Assembly: GCA_016873515.1 (NCBI GenBank)
Contig: VGXB01000004.1
Coordinates: 1 to 64,000, forward strand
Source: Nitrospira sp.
GTDB lineage: Bacteria; Nitrospirota; Nitrospiria; Nitrospirales; Nitrospiraceae
DNA length: 64,000 nt
Reading direction: 5' to 3'
Position numbers and translations under genes: made by a program. How positions within the stretch are numbered: the stretch's first letter is position 1; each line of letters begins with the position of its first letter. The notes beneath the pieces are model-generated. The model was given only the letters and a program-made list of their open reading frames with translations, did not search any database and was not told the origin of the DNA. Positions 8,653 through 59,280 of the stretch are shown here, one piece after another.

Positions 8653-9744
8653 TTAGTCCGTGACCTCCTCGTTCAGCGCCACAGTCTTGATATAGGCAAA
8701 GACCGAGTCTCCGGGTTTAATTCCCAAGGTCATGAGGGATTTGCGAGTAATACCCGCGATGAGCGGTGCCCCGATATCCAAGAGGACCTCCACCGAGGAC
8801 TGGCTGATTTCACGGATCTCTTGAACGGTTGCCTCTAACACATTCAGCACACTAGTCGGGAGGGTGGATCTGCCAATCACGAGGCTGACATCGCTGGACA
8901 GGATATGCACACGCACCGGTTGTCCAATGGCTGATGGTTGAAGTGGCACTAAGAGTCGTTGACCTGAGAAATCGAGCTGTGTGAGTCCGTACTGTGGTTC
9001 ATGCCCGACAATCTTGGCATCTAAGACCGCGCCGACGCGGTGTGACCCAAAACTTCCGCGGAACTGCAAGGAGGTCAACATCTCGTTGAGCGTACCCACT
9101 CCCATGAGTGAGCCGTCTTTCAAGAGGACAAGTCGGTCCGCGAGTTGGAGAATTTCGCTGATGGCGTGGCTGACGTAGATCACCGGGATGGCCAGTTCGT
9201 GGTGAAGACGGTGGATGAAGGGGAGGATCTCTTGCTTGCGCTGAATATCCAGCGAGGCCAGTGGCTCATCGAGCAGGAGGAGGCTGGGACTGGTCAGTAG
9301 GGCTCGTCCAATTGCCACACGCTGTTGCTCGCCCCCGGAAAGCCGATGGGTGCGGCGTTCCAACAAAGGACCGATTCCCAGAATCTCCACCACCTGGTCG
9401 ATCGCAATGCGGCGCGTGTCGCGGCGGATGCGGTTGTAGCCGTACAAGAGATTTGAACGAACATTATAATGGGGAAAGAGGCGAGGCTCTTGGAAGACGT
9501 AGCCGATCGGTCTGGTCTGAAGGGGGAGATACCGCCCGGTGGTTTCATCTTGCCAGACCGTATCGCCAAATTGCATGAACCCATAGGGCGCACGTTCCAA
9601 CCCAGCCAAACATCGCAGCAAGGTCGTTTTGCCGGAACCGGAAGGCCCGAATAACACGGTGATGCCAGATGTCGGGATGTCCAGATCGAGGCGCAAGTGA
9701 AACGTCGGGTAGCGTACGTCGAATTGTGCGACGAGGCGACTCAT
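8653..9744 (-). CDS. modC: Molybdate ABC transporter ATP-binding protein
   Basis: This 363-residue ATPase energises molybdate import at the inner membrane. It has a Walker A motif GPSGSGKTT near residues 33-41, the ABC signature LSGGEQQR near residue 137 and Walker B LLLLDEP near residue 155. A C-terminal extension of about 70 residues (from LEATVQEIREIS) matches the molybdate-binding Mop/TOBE domain that distinguishes ModC from other ABC ATPases. Its ATG overlaps the modB stop by 4 bases. Molybdate would feed molybdopterin enzymes; a sulfite-oxidase-like one is encoded at 54 kb. Confidence 0.95.
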   Translation of the reverse strand: MSRLVAQFDVRYPTFHLRLDLDIPTSGITVLFGPSGSGKTTLLRCLAGLERAPYGFMQFGDTVWQDETTGRYLPLQTRPIGYVFQEPRLFPHYNVRSNLLYGYNRIRRDTRRIAIDQVVEILGIGPLLERRTHRLSGGEQQRVAIGRALLTSPSLLLLDEPLASLDIQRKQEILPFIHRLHHELAIPVIYVSHAISEILQLADRLVLLKDGSLMGVGTLNEMLTSLQFRGSFGSHRVGAVLDAKIVGHEPQYGLTQLDFSGQRLLVPLQPSAIGQPVRVHILSSDVSLVIGRSTLPTSVLNVLEATVQEIREISQSSVEVLLDIGAPLIAGITRKSLMTLGIKPGDSVFAYIKTVALNEEVTD

Positions 9745-10406
9745 GAGGCGTGAATGGGAAATCGGCGGTTGAGGATGTAGACGGTCAGCAGAACTACAAA
9801 CGAAAAGATCAGCAGGAACGCCGAGAGCGCATGGGCCTGGCCGTATTCCATGGCTTCGACATGCTCAAAGACGGTGGTGGAAAGCACTCGTGTCTGACCG
9901 GGAATGGAGCCGCCCACCATGAGGACGACTCCGAACTCTCCCATCGTATGGGCAAAGCCGAGCACAATGGCGCTGATATAGCCGCGCAATGCGATGGGGG
10001 ATATGACCGTCAGAAAGGCATCCCACTGTGACGCGCGGAGCGACCAGGCGGCCTCCAGTGGAGCCTTGCCGGCGGCTTCGAACGCGCCTTGAAGAGGCTG
10101 GATCACGAAGGGCATCGAGTAAAAGGCTGAGGCGATGACCAGACCTGTGAATGTGAAGGCTAGATTGAGCTGCATCAGCTGGCCGAGCGGTCCATGTGGG
10201 CCAAGCGCGATGAGGATGTAAAATCCAAGGACCGTGGGTGGCAACACGATCGGCAAGGCCACCAGCGCCTCCACGGCTGGCTTAAACGGCGAACGGGTAT
10301 GGGCTAGCCACCAGGCGAGGGGGGTGCCTACCAGTAGCAAGACGAGCACTGTCGTGGTTGCCAGTTGCACGCTGACCCACAGTGCACTGAGATCGAGATC
10401 TGTCAT
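9741..10406 (-). CDS. modB: Molybdate ABC transporter permease
   Basis: The 221-residue protein has about five membrane segments and the cytoplasmic coupling loop with EAAWSLRASQWDAFLTV followed by Pro and Ile, the EAA motif that contacts the ATPase. LPIVLPPTVLGFYIL and HTMGEFGVVLMVGG are typical of ModB. Gene order modA-modB-modC and the 4-base overlap with modC support the assignment. A 28-base gap separates it from modA. Confidence 0.95.
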   Translation of the reverse strand: MTDLDLSALWVSVQLATTTVLVLLLVGTPLAWWLAHTRSPFKPAVEALVALPIVLPPTVLGFYILIALGPHGPLGQLMQLNLAFTFTGLVIASAFYSMPFVIQPLQGAFEAAGKAPLEAAWSLRASQWDAFLTVISPIALRGYISAIVLGFAHTMGEFGVVLMVGGSIPGQTRVLSTTVFEHVEAMEYGQAHALSAFLLIFSFVVLLTVYILNRRFPIHAS

Positions 10407-10434
10407 ACTGTCCCTCTTACGTACACGAGGCTCG

Positions 10435-11190
10435 CTATTTCAAGAGATAGCCATACCGGGCAATAATGTTCTTCGCCTGCGTTCCAGTGACAAACTCCAT
10501 CAGTGATTTGGCAGCCGGATTGTCTTTTCCCTTCACTAGCAAAATTACGTCTTGGGTAATCGGTGCATGCGCATCAGTCGGAACCTCCCAGCGACTGCCC
10601 GTTCCCTTGATCTTTGGGTCCAGCACCTGGGAGAGCGCGACAAATCCCAACTGTGCATTGCCGGATTCGATAAACCCCATGGTCTGACCGAGACTCTCCC
10701 CCATGACCAGCTGGGACTTGAGGCTGTCCCAGAGTCCCAGATTTTGCATCGTCTGCATGGCTGCCACACCGTAGGGTGCGGTCTTGGGATTGGCCACGGC
10801 TAGCCGCTTGAAGGTCTTGGAGCGCAACGTCTCTCCTCCCTTGATCAGAGCGGCATTGGGGCTCCACAGGACGAGACGGCCGATAGCATAGGTGAAGCGG
10901 AAATCCTTGACTCCAAGACCCTCCTCTTCTAAGAGTTTGGGTCGATCCCTATCGGCGGAGAAGAACACGTCGAAGGGTGCGCCGTTTTTGATCTGCGCAT
11001 AGAACGCACCGCTGGCGCCCGAGACCACACGGACCTGATGACCAGTTGCCCGTTCAAATTCCGTTGCGATCTCACGAAAGGGCAGATTGAAATTGGCCGC
11101 CACGGCCACAAGAACATGCTCGGCACACACCGGGGGGGCCGCTATTGTGGCGATAACGAACAGACACCATGCCACAGATTTCTGTATCAT
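10435..11190 (-). CDS. modA: Periplasmic molybdate-binding protein
   Basis: The 251-residue precursor has a signal peptide ending near VCA (residue 23) and then the ModA fold: VAVAANFNLPFREIA, GASGAFYAQIKNGAPFDVFFSAD and PYGVAAMQTMQ line the oxyanion pocket. It captures molybdate in the periplasm and passes it to ModB. The gene begins 12 bases after the porin stop, so the two are probably cotranscribed. Confidence 0.95.
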   Translation of the reverse strand: MIQKSVAWCLFVIATIAAPPVCAEHVLVAVAANFNLPFREIATEFERATGHQVRVVSGASGAFYAQIKNGAPFDVFFSADRDRPKLLEEEGLGVKDFRFTYAIGRLVLWSPNAALIKGGETLRSKTFKRLAVANPKTAPYGVAAMQTMQNLGLWDSLKSQLVMGESLGQTMGFIESGNAQLGFVALSQVLDPKIKGTGSRWEVPTDAHAPITQDVILLVKGKDNPAAKSLMEFVTGTQAKNIIARYGYLLK

Positions 11191-11202
11191 AACGAACCCT
11201 TT

Positions 11203-12747
11203 CTAGATCCTGATCTGCATTTGAACATAAAAGTAATCGCTATCGTTGTTCCCGCTGGGTGGCATTTGGCTCAGGATGGCGGGACTGTCGAAATATGAGC
11301 CCTTGAACCAATGGACGTACCCGACATCGAAGTCCAGGTTCGCGCTCATTGCATACTGGGTCTGAAGTTCGACATCGTGTCCAAGAGCACTACCAGAGTT
11401 TCCGGTAATATCCCGCAGACCAGAACTGCCGAAGAAATCCTTGCTTTGCGCGAGATGCCAGACGCGATGTTTTACTTGCACGATGACGTTTGGCGCCGGT
11501 GTGACGACCAGCCGCCATCCGGGGGAAATGAGATTCGTTCTGAAAAACGGAAGGAAGATCCCGGTCGGCCCGTACTCCCATCGTCGGGCGCCGAATAAGG
11601 TGTCGAACCCGTCGTTCTGGCTATCGCCGGGCTTGTGATCTCCGCTGGCATAGTCGAACTGAAACAGGAGTCGAGGGGTCCACCGAGCATTGAGGGTATA
11701 ACCGAGTTCCACATGTTGAAAATGCGCGAAGTGATCGGTCGCGCCTTTGGTCCCAATCTGCCAAGCGGTCTCGATCTCGTAATCCGGTTCTCCCGGCTTG
11801 GGGTCTTTGTAGAGACGGCCTCCGAACGTCGAGTAGGTCCGGTGGGTGGCGACATTCGCCAATCGAATATCGTTGAGCCCGAGGTAATATGCGTCAAGTT
11901 GAAGCCAGGGGAAATGCCGGCTTTCCACATAGGTGCCCCAAAAGAGCGACTTGTTGTTTTGCCGGTCGAGGGTTACGAAATCTCGGATGACGGGTTCCAC
12001 CAAAAAGGCTCGGAGCAGCCACGTTTGATCTTGTTTGAGTTGCCAATGGAGCCCATCAAATGCATTCGAGGTATTCCGAAAATCATTTCGCGCGATCAGC
12101 CGACGCTGCCCGAAGTTCATCGTCATACGTCCGAAATGGACGTCGGTTCGCAGTCCGGTTCCCAGGACATTCTTCACAGTTAACGAGCCCAGTAATTGAA
12201 GGATGTCGAATTCATTGACGGTTGTCGTATCTCGAAAATCTCCTCGGTCTCCGTTCAGTAGAGAACGCGAATCCTGACCTTCAAAGAGAAACCGGAACGG
12301 GCCGTCGCCTCCTAAGCCGACTCGCAGCCGAGATCGGAGCGCGACTTGAGCGTCCGTTGCGCCATTGCCGACCACCTGGTCAGCGCGCCATGGACGGCCG
12401 ACCGACTCAAATCGGGTTCGGTTTTCGAGGGCGAGATCGATCCAGTCCGGCAAGTGCAACCCAGTTTTGAGGTGGCAGTTCCATTTACTATTCTGTCGCC
12501 GATTGAGGACGGCATCAGCCGGTTCGATCCAGTTTTTTTCGGTGCGTTCCGTGGCTTTAAAAGAGCCTTCGTCGGTGATCAAGTGCTTGTCATGCATGAA
12601 TTTGAGCACCGGGTCGTCTGTGTTCTTGAACTCCCATTTCCCTTCCTTCTGAACCAGTTCACCACATTCGACGGCGTGGACTAAACCGATTTCTGGGACG
12701 ATGAACATGGCTAACAGAAGGGTGCAGTAAAGATGTTTCCTCGCCAT
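11203..12747 (-). CDS. Outer-membrane porin of the alginate-export (AlgE-like) family
   Basis: The 514-residue precursor has a signal peptide (about residues 1-25) and then alternating amphipathic strands rich in Tyr, Trp and Phe with an aromatic end (YFYVQMQIRI), as in 16- or 18-strand barrels. RTRFESVGRPWRADQVVGNG and RFLFEGQDSRSL resemble the alginate-export porin family, which in non-alginate producers seems to serve as general or anion porins. Its place between the regulator and modA suggests it admits molybdate or a molybdenum-containing ligand across the outer membrane. The substrate is inferred from context only. Confidence 0.8.
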   Translation of the reverse strand: MARKHLYCTLLLAMFIVPEIGLVHAVECGELVQKEGKWEFKNTDDPVLKFMHDKHLITDEGSFKATERTEKNWIEPADAVLNRRQNSKWNCHLKTGLHLPDWIDLALENRTRFESVGRPWRADQVVGNGATDAQVALRSRLRVGLGGDGPFRFLFEGQDSRSLLNGDRGDFRDTTTVNEFDILQLLGSLTVKNVLGTGLRTDVHFGRMTMNFGQRRLIARNDFRNTSNAFDGLHWQLKQDQTWLLRAFLVEPVIRDFVTLDRQNNKSLFWGTYVESRHFPWLQLDAYYLGLNDIRLANVATHRTYSTFGGRLYKDPKPGEPDYEIETAWQIGTKGATDHFAHFQHVELGYTLNARWTPRLLFQFDYASGDHKPGDSQNDGFDTLFGARRWEYGPTGIFLPFFRTNLISPGWRLVVTPAPNVIVQVKHRVWHLAQSKDFFGSSGLRDITGNSGSALGHDVELQTQYAMSANLDFDVGYVHWFKGSYFDSPAILSQMPPSGNNDSDYFYVQMQIRI

Positions 12748-47944: not shown

Positions 47945-48695
47945 GTGGTGTGAAGCTGTGTATGTTTCTGGATAGCGTTACCATGAATTCTTCGGCAAGG
48001 TACTGATCCTCGAAGCATTCGTACACGTCGTCGAGAAAGCCGCCGCGCAGAAGGGGATGGTAGAGAAATTCTCTTCCTGGCCCTGTTGCAACTTCCAAGG
48101 GGTATTCGCTCACGTCAATTTGTTTGAGCTGTAACTGTTCCAGCCAGCCGCGAACCTCGCTCGCTGACGGCCGTTCGTTTAGATAGGCCTGAAATCGTTC
48201 CCGTTCCTTCATCAGTCCCTGTTGGATCATGGCCTGATCCACTCGTTGCCACAGCGAGTCGAAGGTTCCATGGGACGGAAAGGTCAAAACCAACTGACCA
48301 CCCGGTTCGAGGTGTGGCACCAGCCCGCGAACGGCCTGGAACCTATCAGGACGAAAGAACATCACGGAAAGGTTTCCGGTGATACGATCGAAGCTCGGAA
48401 GATCAGATGGTAACGATCGCATGTCCATGCAATCAAAACGGAGCCATGGTAGTTGTGAGCCTTGAATGACCCTTGCACGAGCGACCTGCCCGGGACTCAC
48501 ATCGATTGCCAGCACTTCTCCGGTAGGACCAACGTGTTCGGCGAGATAGAAGGCTGGAATGCCGTGGCCGGATGCGACATCGAGAATGCGCAGACCCGGA
48601 CAAAGCTCCAAATGGCACAGAAGCGATTCGGCGAACGGTGTGGACCAATAGTCGTATTTGGGGAGAGGCCAGCGAAAGGCGGGTAGAGGGTCCAT
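47907..48695 (-). CDS. Class I SAM-dependent methyltransferase
   Basis: From the ATG at 48695 (an upstream in-frame ATG lies at 48779) the 262-residue protein has the SAM-binding motif ILDVASGHGIPAFYLA near residue 36, AIDVSPGQVARARV and FDCMDMRSLP. The pattern fits UbiE/COQ5-like small-molecule methyltransferases. The C-terminus (VYECFEDQYLAEEFMVTLSR) is helical. The substrate is unknown. It is convergent with lipA. Confidence 0.8.
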   Translation of the reverse strand: MDPLPAFRWPLPKYDYWSTPFAESLLCHLELCPGLRILDVASGHGIPAFYLAEHVGPTGEVLAIDVSPGQVARARVIQGSQLPWLRFDCMDMRSLPSDLPSFDRITGNLSVMFFRPDRFQAVRGLVPHLEPGGQLVLTFPSHGTFDSLWQRVDQAMIQQGLMKERERFQAYLNERPSASEVRGWLEQLQLKQIDVSEYPLEVATGPGREFLYHPLLRGGFLDDVYECFEDQYLAEEFMVTLSRNIHSFTPLIAQRCVLSGRK

Positions 48696-48753
48696 GATGG
48701 CGGCTACCGTGTAGACACGTCTTTTGTCCCGGATGGCCGGGCATAAATGGAAA

Positions 48754-49065
48754 TTATCCGATGATATCGACCCTAACATGCCGATTCCCTCGCCGGAATC
48801 GGTAGCGATTAAAGCCGGCTAGGTCGAGCGTAAAAATCTTGGTTGTTCGGAGCGATTCGCCAGCCACAATAAGAGATGCATCAGCTAAATCCATTAAATG
48901 GTCGCCGTATTGCTCCATCAACCAGAATACTTGCGATGCCACGCGCTGCTCTCTAATGGCAGGGTTTGGCTTTTGGGATAAGGATAAATAGGCGGCCAGC
49001 AGAGCAAGGATATCAACCAGCGTGAAAGACATAGGAGGGGCACTGGCAAGTGGATGAATAGCCAT
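48754..49065 (-). pseudogene. Truncated PIN-domain (VapC-like) fragment
   Basis: The C-terminal half of a PIN domain is recognisable: YGDHLMDLADASLIVAGESL followed by IFTLDLAGFNRYRFRRG, as in VapC-type nucleases. The N-terminal strand with Asp (FTLVDILALLAAYL) is followed at once by the later helix, so about 50 residues of the usual middle seem to be missing. No antitoxin gene is adjacent. It is probably a non-functional remnant. Confidence 0.55.
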
Positions 49066-49176: not shown

Positions 49177-52100
49177 GTGTCCATCTTGCATCGTGGTTTT
49201 ATCCTGATCCTCATCCTGGTCATATCCGGGGGTGCCTTCCTATTTTTCTTCAAGCCGTTGACCGGCGAGGACTATCTCAAGGAATTTGTGTTGCAACAGC
49301 TTGAGGAAAGCCTCGGGCGGAAACTCGACGTGCATCATGTCAAATTCGCGATTCTTCCCCGTCTGCGCGTGGAACTCTCCCAGGTGACGATTCACGATAT
49401 CGATTCGGAGCAGGTATTTTTGTCTGCCAAGCGGATTGATGTCGTCGTGCGTCTCCTGCCGCTCTTGCGCAAACAACTTATCGGCAAACGACTGGTAATT
49501 GAGGAGCCAATACTCACCCTGCGGCGCAACGAAGCAGGTAACTGGAATCTCCTGGAAGGGCTGAAGACGGACGCGAGCACGAGCCAGAACACTCTAGAAA
49601 CCCTGGACTGGATGTTTATGATTCAGGAGGTCACGCTCATCAATGGCGCCGTCACGGTCATCGATGCCTTCAGGACGGATGGCGTGCGTACGCTTCCTCT
49701 TGAGCGAGTCGATGCGAAATTGCTATTTCAGCCTAATCGAGGGCTGGCCAACCTCTATCTCTCAGCCGTTCATCCAAGTGCGGCAGGCCTGTCGGCGGTC
49801 TTCGTGAACGGGCTTATCAAACAAGCGGAAAAGCCGGTGACGCTCGCCAGCAATGCGTCACTTGCCACGGGTCCAGTGTTTCAATTTGACGGCCGGTTTG
49901 ACGCGTCCGATGTGAGTCTGCATGCCGCGGCGGATTTTTTCGGTGTTCGGCCGATTTCGGACCGACTGCAAGGTTTGGTGAATCTCCAAGGCGTGGTACG
50001 AGTGATACCCGGGGTGGCCGGGTATGACCTGGTGCTGTCAGATCTCTCGGCGCGCCTGAACGAGATGACCTTGAATGGCAAAGCCAGTCTGGCCGGGCTC
50101 ATGACACCACAACCGACGTTCGCTGTGACGATCAGTAGTTCGCTGGTGACGCTGCCACAATTGCTGCAGACAATTCCTCTGGAGTGGATCAATCCGCAGA
50201 TCCAGGCCTTATTAGAGGATCGGAAGATCGACGGCAAGGTGCAACTGATCGACGTCACTTTGACAGGGTCTCTGGCAGCCGGTGTGCTGCTGTCGACGAG
50301 CGGAGAGTTTAGAATCCAGGAGGCTCAGGGCTTGATCGGTCAGGACCGTGTCGCCGCGAAGGATCTTGCCGCCTCTGTGTTTGTAGAGCCTGGACGCATC
50401 CGTATTACTACCTTAACCGGAGTGTATGGTGCGATGCACCTGACGGACGGCAAGGCCGTCGTGTCGTTTCTTGAGTCAGGTCCGTGGCTCGAACTGGAAG
50501 TCACGGGCACCATGGCGGGATCCCAGTTGCTGGAATTTCTTGCCAAGACGATGAAGACCGAGCAAATGCTGCGAGTGCTCGCCGGAGTTCGTGACGTAGA
50601 GGGCGCGGCTCAGCCGACATTCCGGCTTGTTGGTCCATTGAATCAATCCCGTGGCATTACGTTTGCCGGCGGAACCATCGTGGTGCAATCGATCAGTCTT
50701 AGCCACACGGCATTACCGAGCCGGCTTACGGATCTGCAGGGCCGACTTGTTCTCGACAACGGCTCAACCAGATTTGAGCAAGTGACCGGCCATCTTGGGG
50801 ATACCGAGGTGCAGATCCAGGGGACGTTGACCAGCGGTGAAGCGAGCCAGTTTCAAAATTTCGGTGTGCGCGCACGCGGAAGGGCCATGTCGATGGCGCG
50901 ACTCGCGTCGCTTCCCGCCATCGCGCCGGAGACATTCGAAGGAATGGTGAGCGCGGATGTGACGGTGTCCGGTTCCATGGCCGTACCGCATGTTAGAGGG
51001 TTGGTGGTGCTCGACGAGGCCAAACTGATTGTGCCGGGGCTGGGTGAAAAGCCCGTCGGCGCGCCGGCTGCTCTTGAGTTCGATGGCGAGATCGCCAGAA
51101 CCAGCGGCGTAGCCATGCACCGGTTGGAAATCGTCCTGCCTTCGCTAAGGATTCCCGTTAAGGGGCATATCCTCATAGGCGAGCGCTTCAGCATTGATGT
51201 GTCGACGGCGATCGGCGCCGTCTCGCTGTCGAGAGTGCCGAAATGGATTTCCAAGGGCGGGCTTGAGGCCGGCAATCTCGAAGTTTCACTCGACCTGAAG
51301 GGAGAGGAGAAGGACTGGAACGCCTGGCTCATCACCGGGTGGTTGGCTCTCACCAACGGCTTGATGACAGTGGAAGGATTCGAGGACCCGCTTCAAGACA
51401 TATATGCCCGGGTAAAATTGGAACGAAGTAGGGCTGCAGTGAAGCGGATAGCTTTTAGGATTCGGGACAGTGACCTGGCGTTTGAGGGGACCGTCAGAAA
51501 TTGGACGACCAGACCGATCATCACCGGTACGATCGAGTCGAACCAGTTGGACTTGAGCCTGCTGATTCCCAAAGGGGACCGGTCGCCCATGCGGGACTTG
51601 CTCGAAACTTTGGCGGAAACCAGCCAGGTAGAGGTATCGGCCACGGCCGCACGCAGTCAATACAAACATTTCAAGTTTGCCTCGCTGTCGGCGCGTGTGA
51701 TCATGCAGGATCGCGCGCTCAACGTCGATCGGTTTTCCGCTGAATCGGCTCATGGCCAAGTCGCCGGCCGTCTCGTGGCCCATCTTCCCCGGAAAGAACC
51801 TGCTGACGTGGAGGTGTCGTTTCGCGCCACGGGCGTGCCGGTCGAGGAGCTCTTGCAGTCGACTAACACGCAGATACGTGGTGTGACCGGCGACATACGG
51901 TTGGTCGGCTCCATTCGCGGCCATGGGCGCAATCCAAATGGTATCTATCCGTCGCTGAGCGGAAAAGCCGAAGTGTTGTTGGAAAATGGGCGCATCCTCA
52001 AATCCAATGAGTGGGCGGTGTGGAAGATCATCGGTCTGTTGAATCTGCTCACCGTGCTGCAAGGGAAGGTGGATTTTGAAAAGGAAGGGCTGCCCTATGA

Positions 52101-52548
52101 CCGGATTTCCGGGACGTTTGCAGTCCAGCAGGGCTTGTTTCAGACCGAGAACGTCGTCATCGACAGTCCTATTCTAAAGATCACGGCTGCGGGCAACTAT
52201 GCCTTGCCGACTGATCAGCTCGATCTTGTGATGGCCGTGAGCCCGTTTGGGGCCTATTCGAAACTCCTGAAAGCCATTCCCCTCTTCGGTCGTATTTTGG
52301 CCGGTGAACGCAAGGGGTTGGCTACGGCGATGTTTGCTGTCAAGGGTGCCGTGGAAGATCCCGAAGTCACGTATATGCCGGTGAAGTCCTTCGCATACGG
52401 CGTGTCGGGATTAGCGCAGTTGGCGGTAGATGTACTGACGAATACCTTATTATTGCCGCTGGATCTTGTCATGCCTGACGGAGATGAAGATCAACCCGAT
52501 GTTCCTCGAACCATTTCGCCGGCTGAGCCGGTGCCGGCCAGACCCTGA
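49177..52548 (+). CDS. Large AsmA-family (YdbH/YhdP-class) envelope protein
   Basis: The GTG at 49177 has AAGGAG 5 bases upstream and directly precedes a membrane anchor (RGFILILILVISGGAFLFFF). The 1,123-residue protein then has an AsmA-like N-terminal module (EFVLQQLEESLGRKLDVHHV) and hundreds of residues of alternating beta strands, ending in an AsmA/YhdP-like C-terminal domain (GRILAGERKGLATAMFAVKG). In E. coli such proteins bridge the envelope and carry phospholipids to the outer membrane. Downstream YnbE-like and YdbL-like genes match the E. coli ydbH-ynbE-ydbL set, but here a broken epimerase gene intervenes. Confidence 0.8.
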   Translation: MSILHRGFILILILVISGGAFLFFFKPLTGEDYLKEFVLQQLEESLGRKLDVHHVKFAILPRLRVELSQVTIHDIDSEQVFLSAKRIDVVVRLLPLLRKQLIGKRLVIEEPILTLRRNEAGNWNLLEGLKTDASTSQNTLETLDWMFMIQEVTLINGAVTVIDAFRTDGVRTLPLERVDAKLLFQPNRGLANLYLSAVHPSAAGLSAVFVNGLIKQAEKPVTLASNASLATGPVFQFDGRFDASDVSLHAAADFFGVRPISDRLQGLVNLQGVVRVIPGVAGYDLVLSDLSARLNEMTLNGKASLAGLMTPQPTFAVTISSSLVTLPQLLQTIPLEWINPQIQALLEDRKIDGKVQLIDVTLTGSLAAGVLLSTSGEFRIQEAQGLIGQDRVAAKDLAASVFVEPGRIRITTLTGVYGAMHLTDGKAVVSFLESGPWLELEVTGTMAGSQLLEFLAKTMKTEQMLRVLAGVRDVEGAAQPTFRLVGPLNQSRGITFAGGTIVVQSISLSHTALPSRLTDLQGRLVLDNGSTRFEQVTGHLGDTEVQIQGTLTSGEASQFQNFGVRARGRAMSMARLASLPAIAPETFEGMVSADVTVSGSMAVPHVRGLVVLDEAKLIVPGLGEKPVGAPAALEFDGEIARTSGVAMHRLEIVLPSLRIPVKGHILIGERFSIDVSTAIGAVSLSRVPKWISKGGLEAGNLEVSLDLKGEEKDWNAWLITGWLALTNGLMTVEGFEDPLQDIYARVKLERSRAAVKRIAFRIRDSDLAFEGTVRNWTTRPIITGTIESNQLDLSLLIPKGDRSPMRDLLETLAETSQVEVSATAARSQYKHFKFASLSARVIMQDRALNVDRFSAESAHGQVAGRLVAHLPRKEPADVEVSFRATGVPVEELLQSTNTQIRGVTGDIRLVGSIRGHGRNPNGIYPSLSGKAEVLLENGRILKSNEWAVWKIIGLLNLLTVLQGKVDFEKEGLPYDRISGTFAVQQGLFQTENVVIDSPILKITAAGNYALPTDQLDLVMAVSPFGAYSKLLKAIPLFGRILAGERKGLATAMFAVKGAVEDPEVTYMPVKSFAYGVSGLAQLAVDVLTNTLLLPLDLVMPDGDEDQPDVPRTISPAEPVPARP

Positions 52549-52587
52549 CCATTCGCTACCATAGATGGAGACGCCGCAGGCCCTCAT

Positions 52588-53540
52588 TCATCGTGGTTGG
52601 ATGGTCGATAGATCTAACCCTGTGCCGGTCCATGGCTGAAGCATGGGGCCATCGTATCGATAACCTCCTTGAACCGGGTCTGCCGCGAGCAGCAAGAGCG
52701 TATTCAGGTCGAGCACGTCGAAGCCGTTGATCCCCAGGACAAGGCTGAACGAGCACCCCATCGCGATGCATGATTCGATCATGCCGCCGATCATGAGCTT
52801 GAGTCCGGCCTTCAGCGTAAACAAGGCGATCTCCAGTGCTTCGATCACGCCGGTTTTCATGCTTTCGATATTGATATAGCCCGCGGCGTGCTGTTCCACG
52901 ACGGTTCTGGGGTCGGCGAGAGAGCGTACCGATTCATCGGCTGCAACGGGAATGTCGGTGGTTCGCCGAATGTGGGCCAGGCTCTCCAGGTTGCCCCGTT
53001 CTACCGGTTGCTCCAGCAGCAGGAGCCTCCCACTGAAACGCCGGACACCGTCAGCAAAGGCGAGGCATTCTTGATACGAGAGCCCTTGATTGCTGTCGCC
53101 AATAAATGCCACGTTGGGAAGGGCGTGGTGCATGGCCTCCACACGACGGATATCCGTGTCTACATCCTTGCCGACCTTCATTTTGAAGAGGCGAAAGCCC
53201 TGTTGGTGCCAGTGACGTGCAAGAGTCAGGGTGTCATCGACCGTCGCGATAGGAATCGTAATACCGGTTTCCCAAGGGCGTACGGCAGCTCCGCCCCATA
53301 ATTGTCACATCGGGATACCGGCGGCATGGCAATAGGAGCAAGGAGCGCTATTTCCAGGCCGCAGTGCGCTACCGGTTGTCTCACGGCCTGGTTGCCCATC
53401 TGGCAGTAGTGCTGAATCGATCGCCCAACCAGCAATGGAACCAGTCGAGCAAGCGTGTTCAAGTAGGATGGATGGTCTTCACCGCCCACTTCGGGAAAGG
53501 GCGCCGCTTCTCCGAATTCGCAGACACCGCTTCAATCTGA
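52588..53540 (-). pseudogene. Broken dipeptide epimerase (enolase superfamily)
   Basis: Pieces of one enolase-superfamily gene lie in order on the minus strand. The N-terminal piece has CEFGEAAPFPEVGGEDHPSY and CGLEIALL; then, in another frame, AAGIPM, TGA (near 53310) and QLWGGAAVRP continue into TVDDTLTLARHWHQQGF and the intact barrel half from KMKVGKDVDTD through GDSNQGLSYQE, LLEQPVE, PVAADESV to the end. At least one frameshift and one nonsense codon separate them; an upstream TGA near 53535 may be a third lesion. The metal ligands D, E and D are retained in the intact half. It separates the AsmA-like gene from ynbE. Confidence 0.75.
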
Positions 53541-53644
53541 CGGCGCAAGAACATATCCTGACTCTTTTGAAGAGTCTGCGTGTAATTCGAGATATTCCGA
53601 GGGCTGTTGAAAAGAGACACGAGCGAAAATAACTGAAGTGATCG

Positions 53645-53856
53645 ATGACACAGCGCAAGGAGGTGTGGGGACTATGGATCAGTATGGCAGAGGTAGGAGT
53701 TGGGATCACGCTCGTGGCTGCACGCCACGAGTGGAAGTCGTTGCGCGGGATAAGCCTATTACCATAAACCTCAACATGAAGATTAATCATGAAGTGCTTG
53801 TGAAGGTTGATAAATATCTCGATAATGTGCTCTTAGGAGAGAGCGGCCTGTTCTAA
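53645..53856 (+). pseudogene. ynbE: YnbE-like outer-membrane lipoprotein gene with frameshift at the lipobox
   Basis: The mature sequence GCTPRVEVVARDKPITINLN and NHEVLVKVDKYLDNVLLGES is clearly YnbE-like. In that frame the preceding residues (MDQYGRGRSWDHAR, from ATG 53674) are not a signal peptide. In the neighbouring frame, ATG 53645 opens a good one (MTQRKEVWGLWISMAEVGVG then ITLV). A one-base loss in the GTGG run at 53714-53717 would account for this and rejoin them as ITLV-GC, a lipobox. The gene is thus broken, or needs frameshifting, or the base is a sequence error. AAGGAGGTG precedes ATG 53674. Confidence 0.7.
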
Positions 53857-53867
53857 GAGGAAATCAA

Positions 53868-54203
53868 ATGGCCATGTGGAGAAAAACCAATGTGTGTGGA
53901 GCAATCCTATGGAGCGTGGCTGGCATGCAGCCGCTGCTGGCGCTCACGCTTAACGAGGCAAAGTCGAAGCGATTGGTTGGCGAGAAGTCCAACGGCTATC
54001 TGGGTGTTGTGGCGGCAGGCAACAAAGAAGCGCAGGTTTTGGCGAGTGACATCAATCAGAAACGTCGTCAGGCGTATCAGGAGATTGCTCGCCGTGACGG
54101 AACGAACTTGAGTACGGTTAAGGCGTTGGCCGGAGAGAAAGCCATTGAAAAAACCAGGCCCGGCAATATGATCGAAGGCCCCGGAGGCTGGGTCAAGAAC
54201 TAG
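53868..54203 (+). CDS. ydbL: YdbL-like DUF1318 periplasmic protein
   Basis: The 111-residue precursor has a signal peptide (AILWSVAGMQPLLALTLNEA) and the DUF1318 pattern GEKSNGYLGVVAAG, QKRRQAYQEIARRDGTNLST, VKALAGEKAIEKTRPGNMIE and GGWVKN. In E. coli YdbL acts with YnbE and YdbH in lipid transport to the outer membrane. It starts 12 bases after the ynbE stop. The retention of this gene suggests the system was recently whole. Confidence 0.85.
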   Translation: MAMWRKTNVCGAILWSVAGMQPLLALTLNEAKSKRLVGEKSNGYLGVVAAGNKEAQVLASDINQKRRQAYQEIARRDGTNLSTVKALAGEKAIEKTRPGNMIEGPGGWVKN

Positions 54204-54208
54204 CCGCC

Positions 54209-54853
54209 TCACCCATACCGGTCGTTTTCCCAGGGTAAGGCGGTATTGGAATAGCCTCGGACTTCCCAGAATCCCTTCGCATCCTGATCGGCGAACGTGA
54301 TCTTTTTCACCCATTTCGCCCCCTTCCACGCATAGCGTTTCGGAATGATCACGCGTACAGGCCCTCCGTGGTCCTTGGACAGGGAATGGCCGTTCCATGT
54401 GCGGGCTAGCAACACGTCGTTATCATCGCAGGCATCAAGCGGAAGGTTGGTGGTGTAGTCGTCATACGACATAAATAGGACAAACTTGGCGAGGGGGAGG
54501 GGTTTCACGATCGACAGAATGTGTTTGAAGCTGACCCCTTCCCAGTCGTTGTCATAACGGCTCCATGATGTCACGCAATGGAAGTCAGACCGATCCGTGA
54601 ATGGTGGCTGTGCTTGGAATTGCTCCCATGTCCAAATCACAGGATGCGAGACGAATCCCCCAATGGTCAGCGTCCATTCTGATAAGGGGATGTCCGGTTT
54701 GGACCCCAGATCCAGCACGGGCCACGTTTCAACGAGATGCTGGCCCGGTGGAAGGCGGGAGTCTCCCTCATAAAAGACCTCACGTTCTTCTCCTCCCCGC
54801 CTGGCCTTGGCCCATTGCTCCTTTGTCTTGGTGAGTCGAGTAGGTTCGTCCAT
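54209..54853 (-). CDS. Sulfite-oxidase-like molybdopterin oxidoreductase (YedY-type domain)
   Basis: The ATG at 54853 has GGAGG a few bases upstream and gives 214 residues with a SUOX-type molybdenum domain: TLTIGGFVSHPVIWTWEQFQ, the Mo-ligating Cys in FHCVTSWSRYDNDWEGVSF and HGGPVRVIIPKRYAWKGAKW. There is no twin-arginine signal, so it appears cytoplasmic. The frame stays open upstream into a DsbA remnant, so a fused protein of 361 residues is possible. It would use the molybdate taken up by ModABC. The substrate is unknown. Confidence 0.85.
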   Translation of the reverse strand: MDEPTRLTKTKEQWAKARRGGEEREVFYEGDSRLPPGQHLVETWPVLDLGSKPDIPLSEWTLTIGGFVSHPVIWTWEQFQAQPPFTDRSDFHCVTSWSRYDNDWEGVSFKHILSIVKPLPLAKFVLFMSYDDYTTNLPLDACDDNDVLLARTWNGHSLSKDHGGPVRVIIPKRYAWKGAKWVKKITFADQDAKGFWEVRGYSNTALPWENDRYG

Positions 54854-55294
54854 TCCAGCCTCCAGCCCACAGAATAGGGTAATCCATGATGCGCTGCAAG
54901 GAGCGTGAGGAGAGAGGGGGTAATACGATGAAGTCTTCGGTGTGAGTAGGTGGTCGATCATTGTTTGGAATTCAGACCGGGGGCGAGCACCGACCAAGGG
55001 GCGGCCATTGATGAAAAATGTCGGGGTACTCGTGATCCCCAGCGCGATCCCATCTTGCAGGTCTTTGAGAACAGCCTGGCGGTACCGGCTGGTTTGCAGG
55101 CACTGGAGGAAGGGGTCCTGTTGGAGACGGAATTCTTGCGCAAGACTGGCATAGTCCCAGCAGGTTCCTGGGGATTGCCGCTCAAACAGTAGGTTATGAT
55201 ACTCCCAGAATTTGCCCTGTTCACCGGCGCAGCGGGCTACCTCAGCCGTGTCTGTGCATGCGAGTGAGTCGGCTCTGAGTAATCCTGTAGACAT
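54854..55294 (-). pseudogene. N-terminally truncated DsbA-like thioredoxin remnant
   Basis: The frame encodes the helical insert and C-terminal part of a DsbA/thioredoxin_4 protein: ARCAGEQGKFWEYHNLLFER, QTSRYRQAVLKDLQDGIALG and the cis-Pro loop ITSTPTFFINGRPLVGARPR. The first strand and the CxxC active site are missing, so it cannot act as an oxidase. It reads in frame, without stop, into the sulfite-oxidase-like gene, an accidental or real fusion. Confidence 0.7.
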
Positions 55295-56109: not shown

Positions 56110-56255
56110 TGGTTTTGGGGTGTGTTGGATGAGCGAAAGGCAGACCCATGATCATGTCGAGGAGCCACTCTCATGGCTGTGAAGTTAGGCGGCTAGGATT
56201 CGTTCTTGTTGTGTAAACCGCGTGGTCGCAAATTGATTTCATTGCATGAAGAAGC

Positions 56256-57483
56256 TTATACATACCCCACAGGGATGGCATCGACACCAGCAGTGATCGC
56301 TGCGAGCGTTTTCGTTAGGCATACCAGCCCACCATGCCCGATGAGCCTGTTCAGCGTTGTCAGCATGCCGAATCCCTTGAACCCGATATTCTGGATAGAC
56401 GCCGTCTTTTTGATCTCGATGAGATAGAGCGTCCCACTCTCTTCAATCAGTAGATCAACTTCCTGCTTTTCCTTGTTGTGGTAGAAAAAGACGTGAGGAG
56501 TGCGTCCCTGATGGAGATAGGATTTGATGATTTCCGAGACGACCCAGGTTTCCAGCATGGCTCTTGACATCGCTCCGCGTTCCAGCACATCGGCACTCAG
56601 CCGTCCGGTCAGATAAGTGCACAGTCCTGTATCCATGAAGTACAGTTTCAGTGTTTTGATCAGCCACTTGGTGCGGTTATTGAAATAAAGCTGCAGTTGA
56701 TAGACGATGCCTGAGGCATGATGGACGTGCCAACATGTTTTGACCGTCACTTCGCTCACGCTGACGTTCCTCGCCATATCCGCATAGTTGATCAACTGGC
56801 CGGTTCTGGCCGCCGCGATCTGCATAAATGTATGAAAGGCGGCGGTATCATTGATATTCAAATACTCCCTGACGTCGCGCTGTATGTAGGTGGCCACGTA
56901 GGAGCTGTAAAATCGTTCCCAGTTGTTGTCATTGTTCTGTGCGACCATATCAGAGTAAGAGCCGCGCCAGATCTTGTGATAAACCTCCGGCAAGGTCATA
57001 GGTTTCGCGGTCTTTTGTCGGGATTTGAGTAACGGCACATCTGTGAGGAAAGGCGGATCGTCGGCATGGCCTTGTTTTTCGGCCAAGGCAATGCCTTGCA
57101 GGTGTAAGATCGCTACACGTCCAGCCAGCGGCTCCGTGACGGTTTTCATCATGCTGAGTTGCTGCGATTCAGTGAGCCAGAACAGCCCATTTTGTTTTTC
57201 CGATCCACACCATTGTCATGTAAGAGAACAGGTTCGGCACATATTGGGCCTCATCGATCAGGACGGGGAGTTCCAGTCTATCCAGGAAACTAACCAGATC
57301 TTGTTGTGCCGCCCGCCGCATATTGAGATCGTCCAGCGTCACATAGGAACGGGATTGTTTTTGCACTTCCTGCAAGAGCGTGGTTTTCCCGACTTGGCGA
57401 GGTCCTGTCAGCAAGACGGCCTTGAAACTGGCGCTGACCTCCAGGATTGCTTTCTTTAAAGTGCGTGGTACGGTCTTGCGTAT
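56256..57483 (-). pseudogene. DUF4143-type ATPase gene, frameshifted and without normal start
   Basis: The N-terminal AAA part (IRKTVPRTLKKAILEVSASF, LLTGPRQVGKTTLLQEV, Walker B ELPVLIDEAQYVPNLFSY) and the C-terminal part (QNGLFWLTESQQLSMMKTVT, then the DUF4143 end LETWVVSEIIKSYLHQG and VDLLIEESGTLYLIEIKKTA) lie in different frames that switch near 57185-57200, beside an A/T run. The expected start codon at 57483-57481 reads ATA. The protein family is a mobile P-loop ATPase of unknown role. It is most likely inactive, though the frameshift could be a sequencing slip. Confidence 0.75.
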
Positions 57484-57726
57484 GGGACGACTAATCCAAA
57501 GTGTAGGTTTAGAATAGTCGCAATAGATTTGGTGTCAATGTTTCACGAGCCTGCATGAGATCTTGCCGCACGCCATCACATGGCACCACGATCTGCTCAC
57601 CATCCGATGCTTGTAAGACTGTCCCCCGGGGTCTAACTAACAGCCGAACCGTGTATTGTATTGACAGACCGAAGAGAGGCCACCATGATACCGATGCATT
57701 ACACAAACATGGAGAAGGTTGAAACG

Positions 57727-59280
57727 ATGAGCTTGCGCGAGGACAATCTTGTGCGTCCCAACGATGAGCACAATCAGCAGCTGCTTGCCAATGTCCATCC
57801 AGCCGACTGGGTCAATCCTGAGCCGACGGGCCAGTACAATATTGTGGTCCTCGGCGCTGGGACCGCCGGACTGATTACGGCGATCGTGGCGGCACGCCTT
57901 GGGGCCAAAGTGGCGCTGATCGAAAAACATTTGATGGGCGGGGATTGTCTGAACGTCGGGTGTGTGCCATCAAAAGGCATCATCCGAGCCGCGAGGGCTT
58001 GGGCTGACTTGAGAAAGGCGACCGAGTTCGGCCTCTCGATTCCCCCCGGCGTGACGTATGATTTTGGCGCCGTTATGGCACGCATGAGGAAGCTGCAGAC
58101 TCGCATCAGCCAAAACGATTCCGTTCAGCGGTATACGAAACTTGGCGTGGATGTCTATATCGGCAGCGGGCGGTTTCTTGGAACTGACCGGATTCAAGTG
58201 GAAGGGTCGGCAGGTGATCGGCAGCTGGCGTTCGCCAGGGCGGCGATCTGCACCGGGGGGAGAGCATCGGTGCCAACAATCCCTGGATTGCAGGAGGCCG
58301 GGTACCGCACGAATGAAACAGTCTTTTCACTGACGGCGCTGCCACAAAGGCTGGGGGTCATCGGCGCAGGGCCGATCGGCTGCGAGCTAGCGCAGGCCTT
58401 TGCCCGTTTTGGAAGCCAAGTGTATCTGATCGAAGTCATGCACGGCATCATGCCGAATGAAGATCGCGATGCTGCGGAGATTGTTGAGCAGCAGATGATT
58501 CGAGATGGCGTGAAGCTCCTCTGCTGCGGGAAAGACCTGCGAATCGAGAGGGTTGAAGGCGGTAAACGACTGATCCTCGACTCGCATGATCAGCAGTATG
58601 ACGTGACGGTTGATGAAATCCTTGTCGGGGTAGGACGGCTTCCAAACGTGGAACGAATCGGGCTGGAAGCGGCCGGCGTCGCGTATGACACAAGGGGAAT
58701 TCAGGTGAACGGCAAGTTACAGACCACAAATCCCAAGGTGTTTGCTGCTGGCGATGTCTGCTCTCGGTACAAATTTACCCATGCGGCCGATGCCATGGCC
58801 CAGATCGTCATTCAGAACGCGTTGTTTCCGCATCCATTGGGTTTGGGTTATGCCAATGTGGAGTCCTTGAACATGCCCTGGTGTACCTTTACCGATCCAG
58901 AGGTCGCGCATGTGGGGCTGTACGAGAAAGATGCCAAGGAGAAAGGCATCGAGCTGGAAACCTATACGTGCAAATTGAACGAAGTGGATCGGGCGATCCT
59001 GGATGGAGAGGAAGAAGGGTTCGCACGCGTGCACATTCAAAGAGGGACAGATAAGATCCTTGGCGCAACCATCGTCGCGGCCCATGCCGGCGATTTGATC
59101 AATGAATTTTCCGTGGCGATGAAAGCGGGAGCCGGCGCCAAAACAATTGCCAGCACGATCCATCCGTATCCGACTCAGGCTGAGGTGAATAAAAAAGTCA
59201 TCAATCTGTGGCGCAAGGCCCACTTCTCGCAAGGCACGAAGAATTTCCTTGTCAAAGTTTTTGCGTGGATGAGGCGCTAA
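57727..59280 (+). CDS. Flavin-dependent disulfide reductase (mercuric reductase-like)
   Basis: The ATG at 57727 has AGAAGG 8 bases upstream; in-frame ATGs at 57685 and 57697 are alternatives. The 517-residue protein has FAD-binding VVLGAGTAGLITAI near residue 41, the redox pair C74/C79 in GGDCLNVGCVPSKG, NAD-binding GVIGAGPIGCELAQAFARFG and the C-terminal HPYPTQAEV with catalytic His. It belongs to the mercuric-reductase/dihydrolipoamide-dehydrogenase family. The C-terminal vicinal CC of true MerA is absent, and no mer genes are near, so the substrate is unclear. Confidence 0.9.
   Translation: MSLREDNLVRPNDEHNQQLLANVHPADWVNPEPTGQYNIVVLGAGTAGLITAIVAARLGAKVALIEKHLMGGDCLNVGCVPSKGIIRAARAWADLRKATEFGLSIPPGVTYDFGAVMARMRKLQTRISQNDSVQRYTKLGVDVYIGSGRFLGTDRIQVEGSAGDRQLAFARAAICTGGRASVPTIPGLQEAGYRTNETVFSLTALPQRLGVIGAGPIGCELAQAFARFGSQVYLIEVMHGIMPNEDRDAAEIVEQQMIRDGVKLLCCGKDLRIERVEGGKRLILDSHDQQYDVTVDEILVGVGRLPNVERIGLEAAGVAYDTRGIQVNGKLQTTNPKVFAAGDVCSRYKFTHAADAMAQIVIQNALFPHPLGLGYANVESLNMPWCTFTDPEVAHVGLYEKDAKEKGIELETYTCKLNEVDRAILDGEEEGFARVHIQRGTDKILGATIVAAHAGDLINEFSVAMKAGAGAKTIASTIHPYPTQAEVNKKVINLWRKAHFSQGTKNFLVKVFAWMRR

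Follow-up and report, generated by a model that had tools for sequence, protein, structure and literature searches.

The window analysed here, 64,000 nucleotides of contig C4 from a Nitrospira genome, very probably holds, at positions 49177–54203, the remains of a ydbH-ynbE-ydbL operon that is decaying in a member of this genus with a reduced genome. Most of ydbH has been deleted, ynbE has a frameshift at its lipobox, and the remnants carry an excess of amino-acid change. In E. coli, YdbH interacts with the outer-membrane lipoprotein YnbE (PMC12977461), and YdbH–YnbE moves phospholipid to the outer membrane (PMC11784454). The original prediction for this locus proposed that the YdbH/YnbE/YdbL system occurs outside Proteobacteria and that it may be in the course of being lost here; the data bear out both points, since the system is present in Nitrospirota.

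The window genome comprises 1,979,228 bases in 83 contigs and is 99.84% complete. Its closest available relatives are G071, the Lake Tanganyika metagenome-assembled genome (MAG) M_DeepCast_65m_mx_150 (2.7 Mb), with 86% identity in the giant AsmA-superfamily protein encoded at the beginning of the locus, and G063 and G005 (isolate YR-XLJ-2), with 80–81% identity in the same protein. Gene families were called by Pfam profile search, the deletion junction was placed by blastn together with the junction sequences, and the genus survey covered 79 Nitrospira genomes, the window genome included.

In G005, which has the intact arrangement, the giant is followed by two genes, a minus-strand epimerase gene, and the divergent ydbH, ynbE and ydbL. 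The ydbH gene of this isolate is a 992-codon frame (PF11739, E = 9.8e-73), and about 159 bp separate its probable start from that of the epimerase. Also in G063, ydbH is located between the epimerase and ynbE; it is intact in the closest relative G071, and a PF11739 frame of about 930–1,020 codons is found directly upstream of ynbE in most relatives. The two genes between the giant and the epimerase are already absent in G071, so their loss is older.

In the window, the alignments to G005 and to G063 give one and the same junction at base 53531, with 2,972 bp missing. The deletion scar (53530..53531) joins position 9382 to 12355 of G005 and 9140 to 12113 of G063, about 1 base being common to the two sides of the join. 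The deleted segment spans the beginning of the epimerase, the intergenic region between the divergent genes and the whole of ydbH except its last 33 codons. These codons (FNLTAQEHILTLLKSLRVIRDIPRAVEKRHERK*; 53531..53632, plus strand) run in frame to the stop and end a 65-aa open frame (53435–53632), in which residues 32–61 match positions 862–891 of the 893 in PF11739 with E = 0.0044, which is below the cut-off. Across the 3' end of ydbH, ynbE and the start of ydbL, the window retains 87% nucleotide identity to G071. A whole-protein PF11739 match over the cut-off, by which a YdbH would be recognised, was found nowhere in the whole 99.84%-complete genome.

On the other side of the scar lies an enolase-superfamily epimerase pseudogene (52588..53530, minus strand, PF13378), which in the alignment to the intact 359-aa gene of G071 lacks the first 129 bp and has a 12-bp and a 1-bp deletion. 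The gene is dead because the ydbH deletion also took these first 129 bp. The original prediction described a decayed minus-strand epimerase splitting the operon; the gene is indeed broken, but it never split the operon: where the locus is intact in relatives, it lies upstream of ydbH as a divergent neighbour.

Downstream of the stub, ynbE consists of two pieces whose reading frames differ by one base: the signal-peptide part (MTQRKEVWGLWISMAEVGVGITLV; 53645..53718, plus strand, ATG at 53645) and the mature part, which is open from the lipobox cysteine (53719..53856, plus strand) and has no in-frame signal peptide. The resemblance of the mature part to YnbE, previously seen by eye, corresponds to a PF13617 profile match (E = 1.1e-13, 51.7 bits against a cut-off of 25.8); over 44 aa, the mature part is 52% identical to E. 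coli YnbE. The missing base predicted between the two parts is apparent on comparison with G071, whose counterpart of the signal-peptide region is MTQSKRVWGLWISMVGVGVGIALGAC: the lesion is at about 53716–53719, exactly at the lipobox, and the window ynbE thus does not join a signal peptide and lipobox to the mature part in one frame, as a lipoprotein gene would. In all 40 relatives in which ynbE was read, including G034, where Ns interrupt it after the lipobox, one and the same frame covers the upstream part, the lipobox and the mature part. The window YnbE departs at 4 of the 26 strongly conserved positions (conserved in at least 23 of 25 relatives), while 23 of the 25 relatives depart at two or fewer.

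The third gene, ydbL (53874..54203, plus strand), is open and located directly downstream of ynbE, and its product, recognised as YdbL-like already in the original prediction, has a signal peptide and a DUF1318 domain (PF07027, E = 1.9e-25, 89.7 bits against a cut-off of 27). It is 36% identical to E. coli YdbL and matches by sequence (E = 4.6e-13) the crystal structure of that protein, 28oj, which is filed as a “probable chaperone-like protein”. At three positions that are invariant in 25 relatives the window protein is changed (G33R, E83K and K109N), and one of these positions is a glycine conserved to E. coli.

The decay signal was estimated from changes found only in the window or only in G071 relative to an outgroup. 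As a baseline, the 33 other intact frames of the window have 438 amino-acid and 696 synonymous changes on the window branch, and 199 and 489, respectively, on the G071 branch. Amino-acid changes in the window versus G071 number 9 versus 2 in the mature part of ynbE (synonymous 2 versus 2), 7 versus 0 in ydbL (synonymous 5 versus 9) and 20 versus 2 in the epimerase (synonymous 8 versus 3). The excess over the window baseline is observed for ynbE and ydbL together (Fisher p = 0.004), for ynbE alone (p = 0.005), and for the epimerase, ynbE and ydbL in comparison with the 33 other genes (p = 7e-6); the tests assume that substitutions are independent and compare with a single sister and a single outgroup, which makes them indicative. 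In a separate observation, the ratio of amino-acid to synonymous change over the 33 intact genes is itself higher in the window than in G071 (p = 2.6e-5), a pattern to be expected where selection on a lineage is weaker.

The genus survey covered all three genes of the module. YdbH is present in 69 of the 79 genomes, and YnbE and YdbL in 67 each; nine of the ten genomes lacking YdbH also lack YnbE and YdbL, indicating that the three genes travel together, and the window genome alone keeps both. G092 and G094, each 99% complete, have no YdbH, YnbE or YdbL, so the genus has lost the module more than once. Beyond Nitrospira itself, YnbE is present in other Nitrospirales, but its distribution across the phylum is patchy (42 of 246 genomes). 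In the window, the three genes are no longer intact together, as a functional system would have them.

Some points weigh against the interpretation of this locus as a decaying remnant. The species is represented by a single assembly without reads, and the loss of one base in ynbE could be an assembly error; the contigs of the nearest relative, G071, break between the epimerase and ydbH, where the ancestral spacing can therefore not be read exactly; and for ydbL by itself relaxation falls short of significance (p = 0.23), and the signal peptide is retained. The latter point, together with the retention of the start and of the full DUF1318 domain, agrees with the suggestion that only ydbH and ynbE were lost and that ydbL still functions, for example as a chaperone for some other client. 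We consider this rather unlikely, because the invariant positions have changed, including the glycine shared with E. coli, the branch-specific amino-acid changes of ydbL (7 versus 0) are all on the window branch, YdbL is gone too in the nine other YdbH-less genomes, and the likely promoter region lies within the deleted stretch. An assembly artefact, in which the cell would have ydbH and an in-frame ynbE, and the collapsed region and missing base would be products of the assembler, might be imagined for a single assembly of 83 contigs; however, the approximately one base common at the join is far below what overlap joining needs, the single-base losses in ynbE and in the epimerase are both outside homopolymers, excess substitutions in the remnants are not expected from assembly error, and PF11739 has no match over the cut-off anywhere in the genome. 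An artefact is therefore very improbable, though somewhat less so for the single base of ynbE.

The giant gene (49177..52548, plus strand), which the original prediction placed first in the operon in the role of YdbH, is intact and encodes an AsmA-superfamily protein of the YhdP/AsmA type of about 1123 aa. Its 1,152-codon frame matches the YhdP profile PF13116 (E = 2.5e-37, 128.9 bits, cut-off 46), has an N-terminal AsmA domain (PF05170, E = 4.7e-27, 95.5 bits) and also matches DUF748 (PF05359). PF11739 gave no match to it at E ≤ 1 in the Pfam search, which together with the whole-genome PF11739 search rules out the giant as YdbH; the assignment to the AsmA family was correct, and the YdbH identity was not. 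Similarly, the proposed E. coli order is valid for ynbE-ydbL, and for the true ydbH in intact relatives, but not for the giant as the first gene, and the bridge predicted earlier between the AsmA protein and YnbE would concern the wrong pair. Matches to the giant were detected in 78 of the 79 Nitrospira genomes (a few of them weak), mostly distant from ynbE, the two being close together only in the window's clade. The giant and ynbE thus form no operon, and the giant never belonged to the ydbH operon. Its similarity to E. coli YhdP (b4472) is weak in BLAST (E = 0.009) and it is about 140 aa shorter, so this is a likeness without established orthology. The AlphaFold model, considered for the periplasm-spanning hydrophobic groove of this superfamily and based on only 7 sequences (pLDDT 43, pTM 0.30), has an N-terminal helix and many strands and is too poor to compare, and sequence searches of solved structures with the giant and with YdbH gave nothing meaningful.

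Programmed −1 frameshifting, which was offered earlier as the other explanation and would yield a functional YnbE with the giant replacing YdbH as its partner, is hardly credible: a −1 slip after CTC GTG would produce an E. coli-like L-V-G-C lipobox, and the frames of mature YnbE and of YdbL have stayed open, but the overlap has no slippery heptamer, YnbE departs from its conserved positions more than nearly all relatives do, G092 and G094 keep the giant yet have no YnbE, the known partner of E. coli YnbE is YdbH (PMC12977461), which is gone here, and all readable relatives encode ynbE in a single frame.

For the decay of the operon, an ordinary mechanism may be proposed. In the ancestor, the minus-strand epimerase gene was divergent from the plus-strand ydbH-ynbE-ydbL unit, the two being about 160 bp apart. 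One deletion of ~3 kb took the epimerase start, the intergenic region and ydbH minus its last 33 codons, and the promoters of both units were probably lost with the intergenic region. Without YdbH, the inner-membrane bridge to which YnbE docks, YnbE would have no docking partner and YdbL no complex to serve. The base loss at the ynbE lipobox would then represent a neutral second hit, presumably later than the deletion, and ynbE and the epimerase gathered further changes. The giant would presumably be left as the sole carrier of phospholipid transport from the inner to the outer membrane.

Intact Nitrospira relatives share with E. coli K-12 (b1381–b1383; order confirmed in NC_000913) both the gene order, with ydbH directly before ynbE and ydbL directly after it, and the families PF11739, PF13617 and PF07027. 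The window differs from the E. coli operon by the reduction of ydbH to 33 codons and the frameshift in ynbE, and several congeners differ from it by the fusion of ynbE and ydbL. In-frame YnbE–YdbL fusions were observed in seven Nitrospira genomes (G001, G010, G012, G016, G018, G024 and G031), at loci L047:5773–6240, L052:4766–5233, L055:5271–5738, L060:12315–12782 and L061:14881–15348, and also in L051 and L056. These genes have neither the stop of ynbE nor the spacer nor the signal peptide of YdbL, and the chain consists of a lipoprotein signal, YnbE and the DUF1318 domain; the frame ends about 13 residues early in G016 and in G024, the latter being a single contig. In the model of the G031 fusion, the C-terminal helix of YnbE leads into a well-predicted DUF1318 domain (block means 92–97), which matches E. 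coli YdbL 28oj (E = 1.6e-7, TM 0.86 by target); the YnbE strand segment is modelled with low confidence, as might be expected where the YdbH partner is absent. No paper describing a YnbE–YdbL fusion was found in the part of the literature covered. The fusions suggest that YdbL acts on YnbE at the outer membrane.

The size of the window genome resembles that of NspiraGL, the planktonic freshwater Nitrospira of the Great Lakes with streamlined genomes: the median there is 1.83 Mb, and the window genome is likewise very small (1.98 Mb). NspiraGL genomes have lost genes for pili, transport and sensing, and fewer pseudogenes are reported for them, with no mention of the outer membrane (PMC9239080). 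NspiraGL inhabits freshwater lakes and the closest relative of the window genome is a MAG from Lake Tanganyika, which is a likeness only and implies no group assignment.

Other differences from the relatives were observed around the locus. At 48674–48936, a 548-aa gene of G005 and G071 (phosphoglucomutase-like by its start) is deleted and replaced by ~260 bp of unrelated sequence, possibly including the end of a PIN-domain toxin gene. At 54209–55294, a single open frame contains both a DsbA-like thioredoxin domain and a sulfite-oxidase-like molybdopterin protein; in several relatives the thioredoxin domain is in a separate stretch adjoining the molybdopterin protein. About 1.6 kb at 56112–57757 is absent from G071, G063 and G005 and contains pieces of an ATPase which by eye resemble the AAA/DUF4143 kind.

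The loss of YdbH acquires its meaning from the remaining AsmA-type proteins. TamB (PF04357), a potential back-up bridge, was found in none of the ten Nitrospira genomes searched; Nitrospira thus seemingly relies on YdbH and the YhdP-like giant as its large bridges. G005 and G063 possess the giant, YdbH, a 570–620-aa AsmA protein and a 984-aa DUF748 protein, and G071 possesses the first three of these types, while in the window genome the giant is the only AsmA-superfamily gene detectable by whole-genome profile searches. The giant has 105 unique amino-acid changes in the window against 30 in G071 (synonymous 72 against 64), an excess above the baseline of the 33 other genes (p = 2.9e-7) which is spread along a protein with an intact frame. 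This rapid change may represent either relaxation or adaptation. It is possible, though doubtful, that after a stepwise loss of paralogues the giant became the sole supplier of phospholipid to the outer membrane and that its burst of amino-acid change is an adaptation to that role. E. coli with YhdP only is viable, although phospholipid accumulates in its inner membrane (PMC8912898), which indicates that a one-bridge cell is possible; if the proposed role is true, the window genome would represent a natural counterpart of the “YhdP-only” strain. This lineage shows YdbH being discarded, and the natural series of four, three and one AsmA-type proteins in these relatives bears on how few bridges an outer membrane needs.

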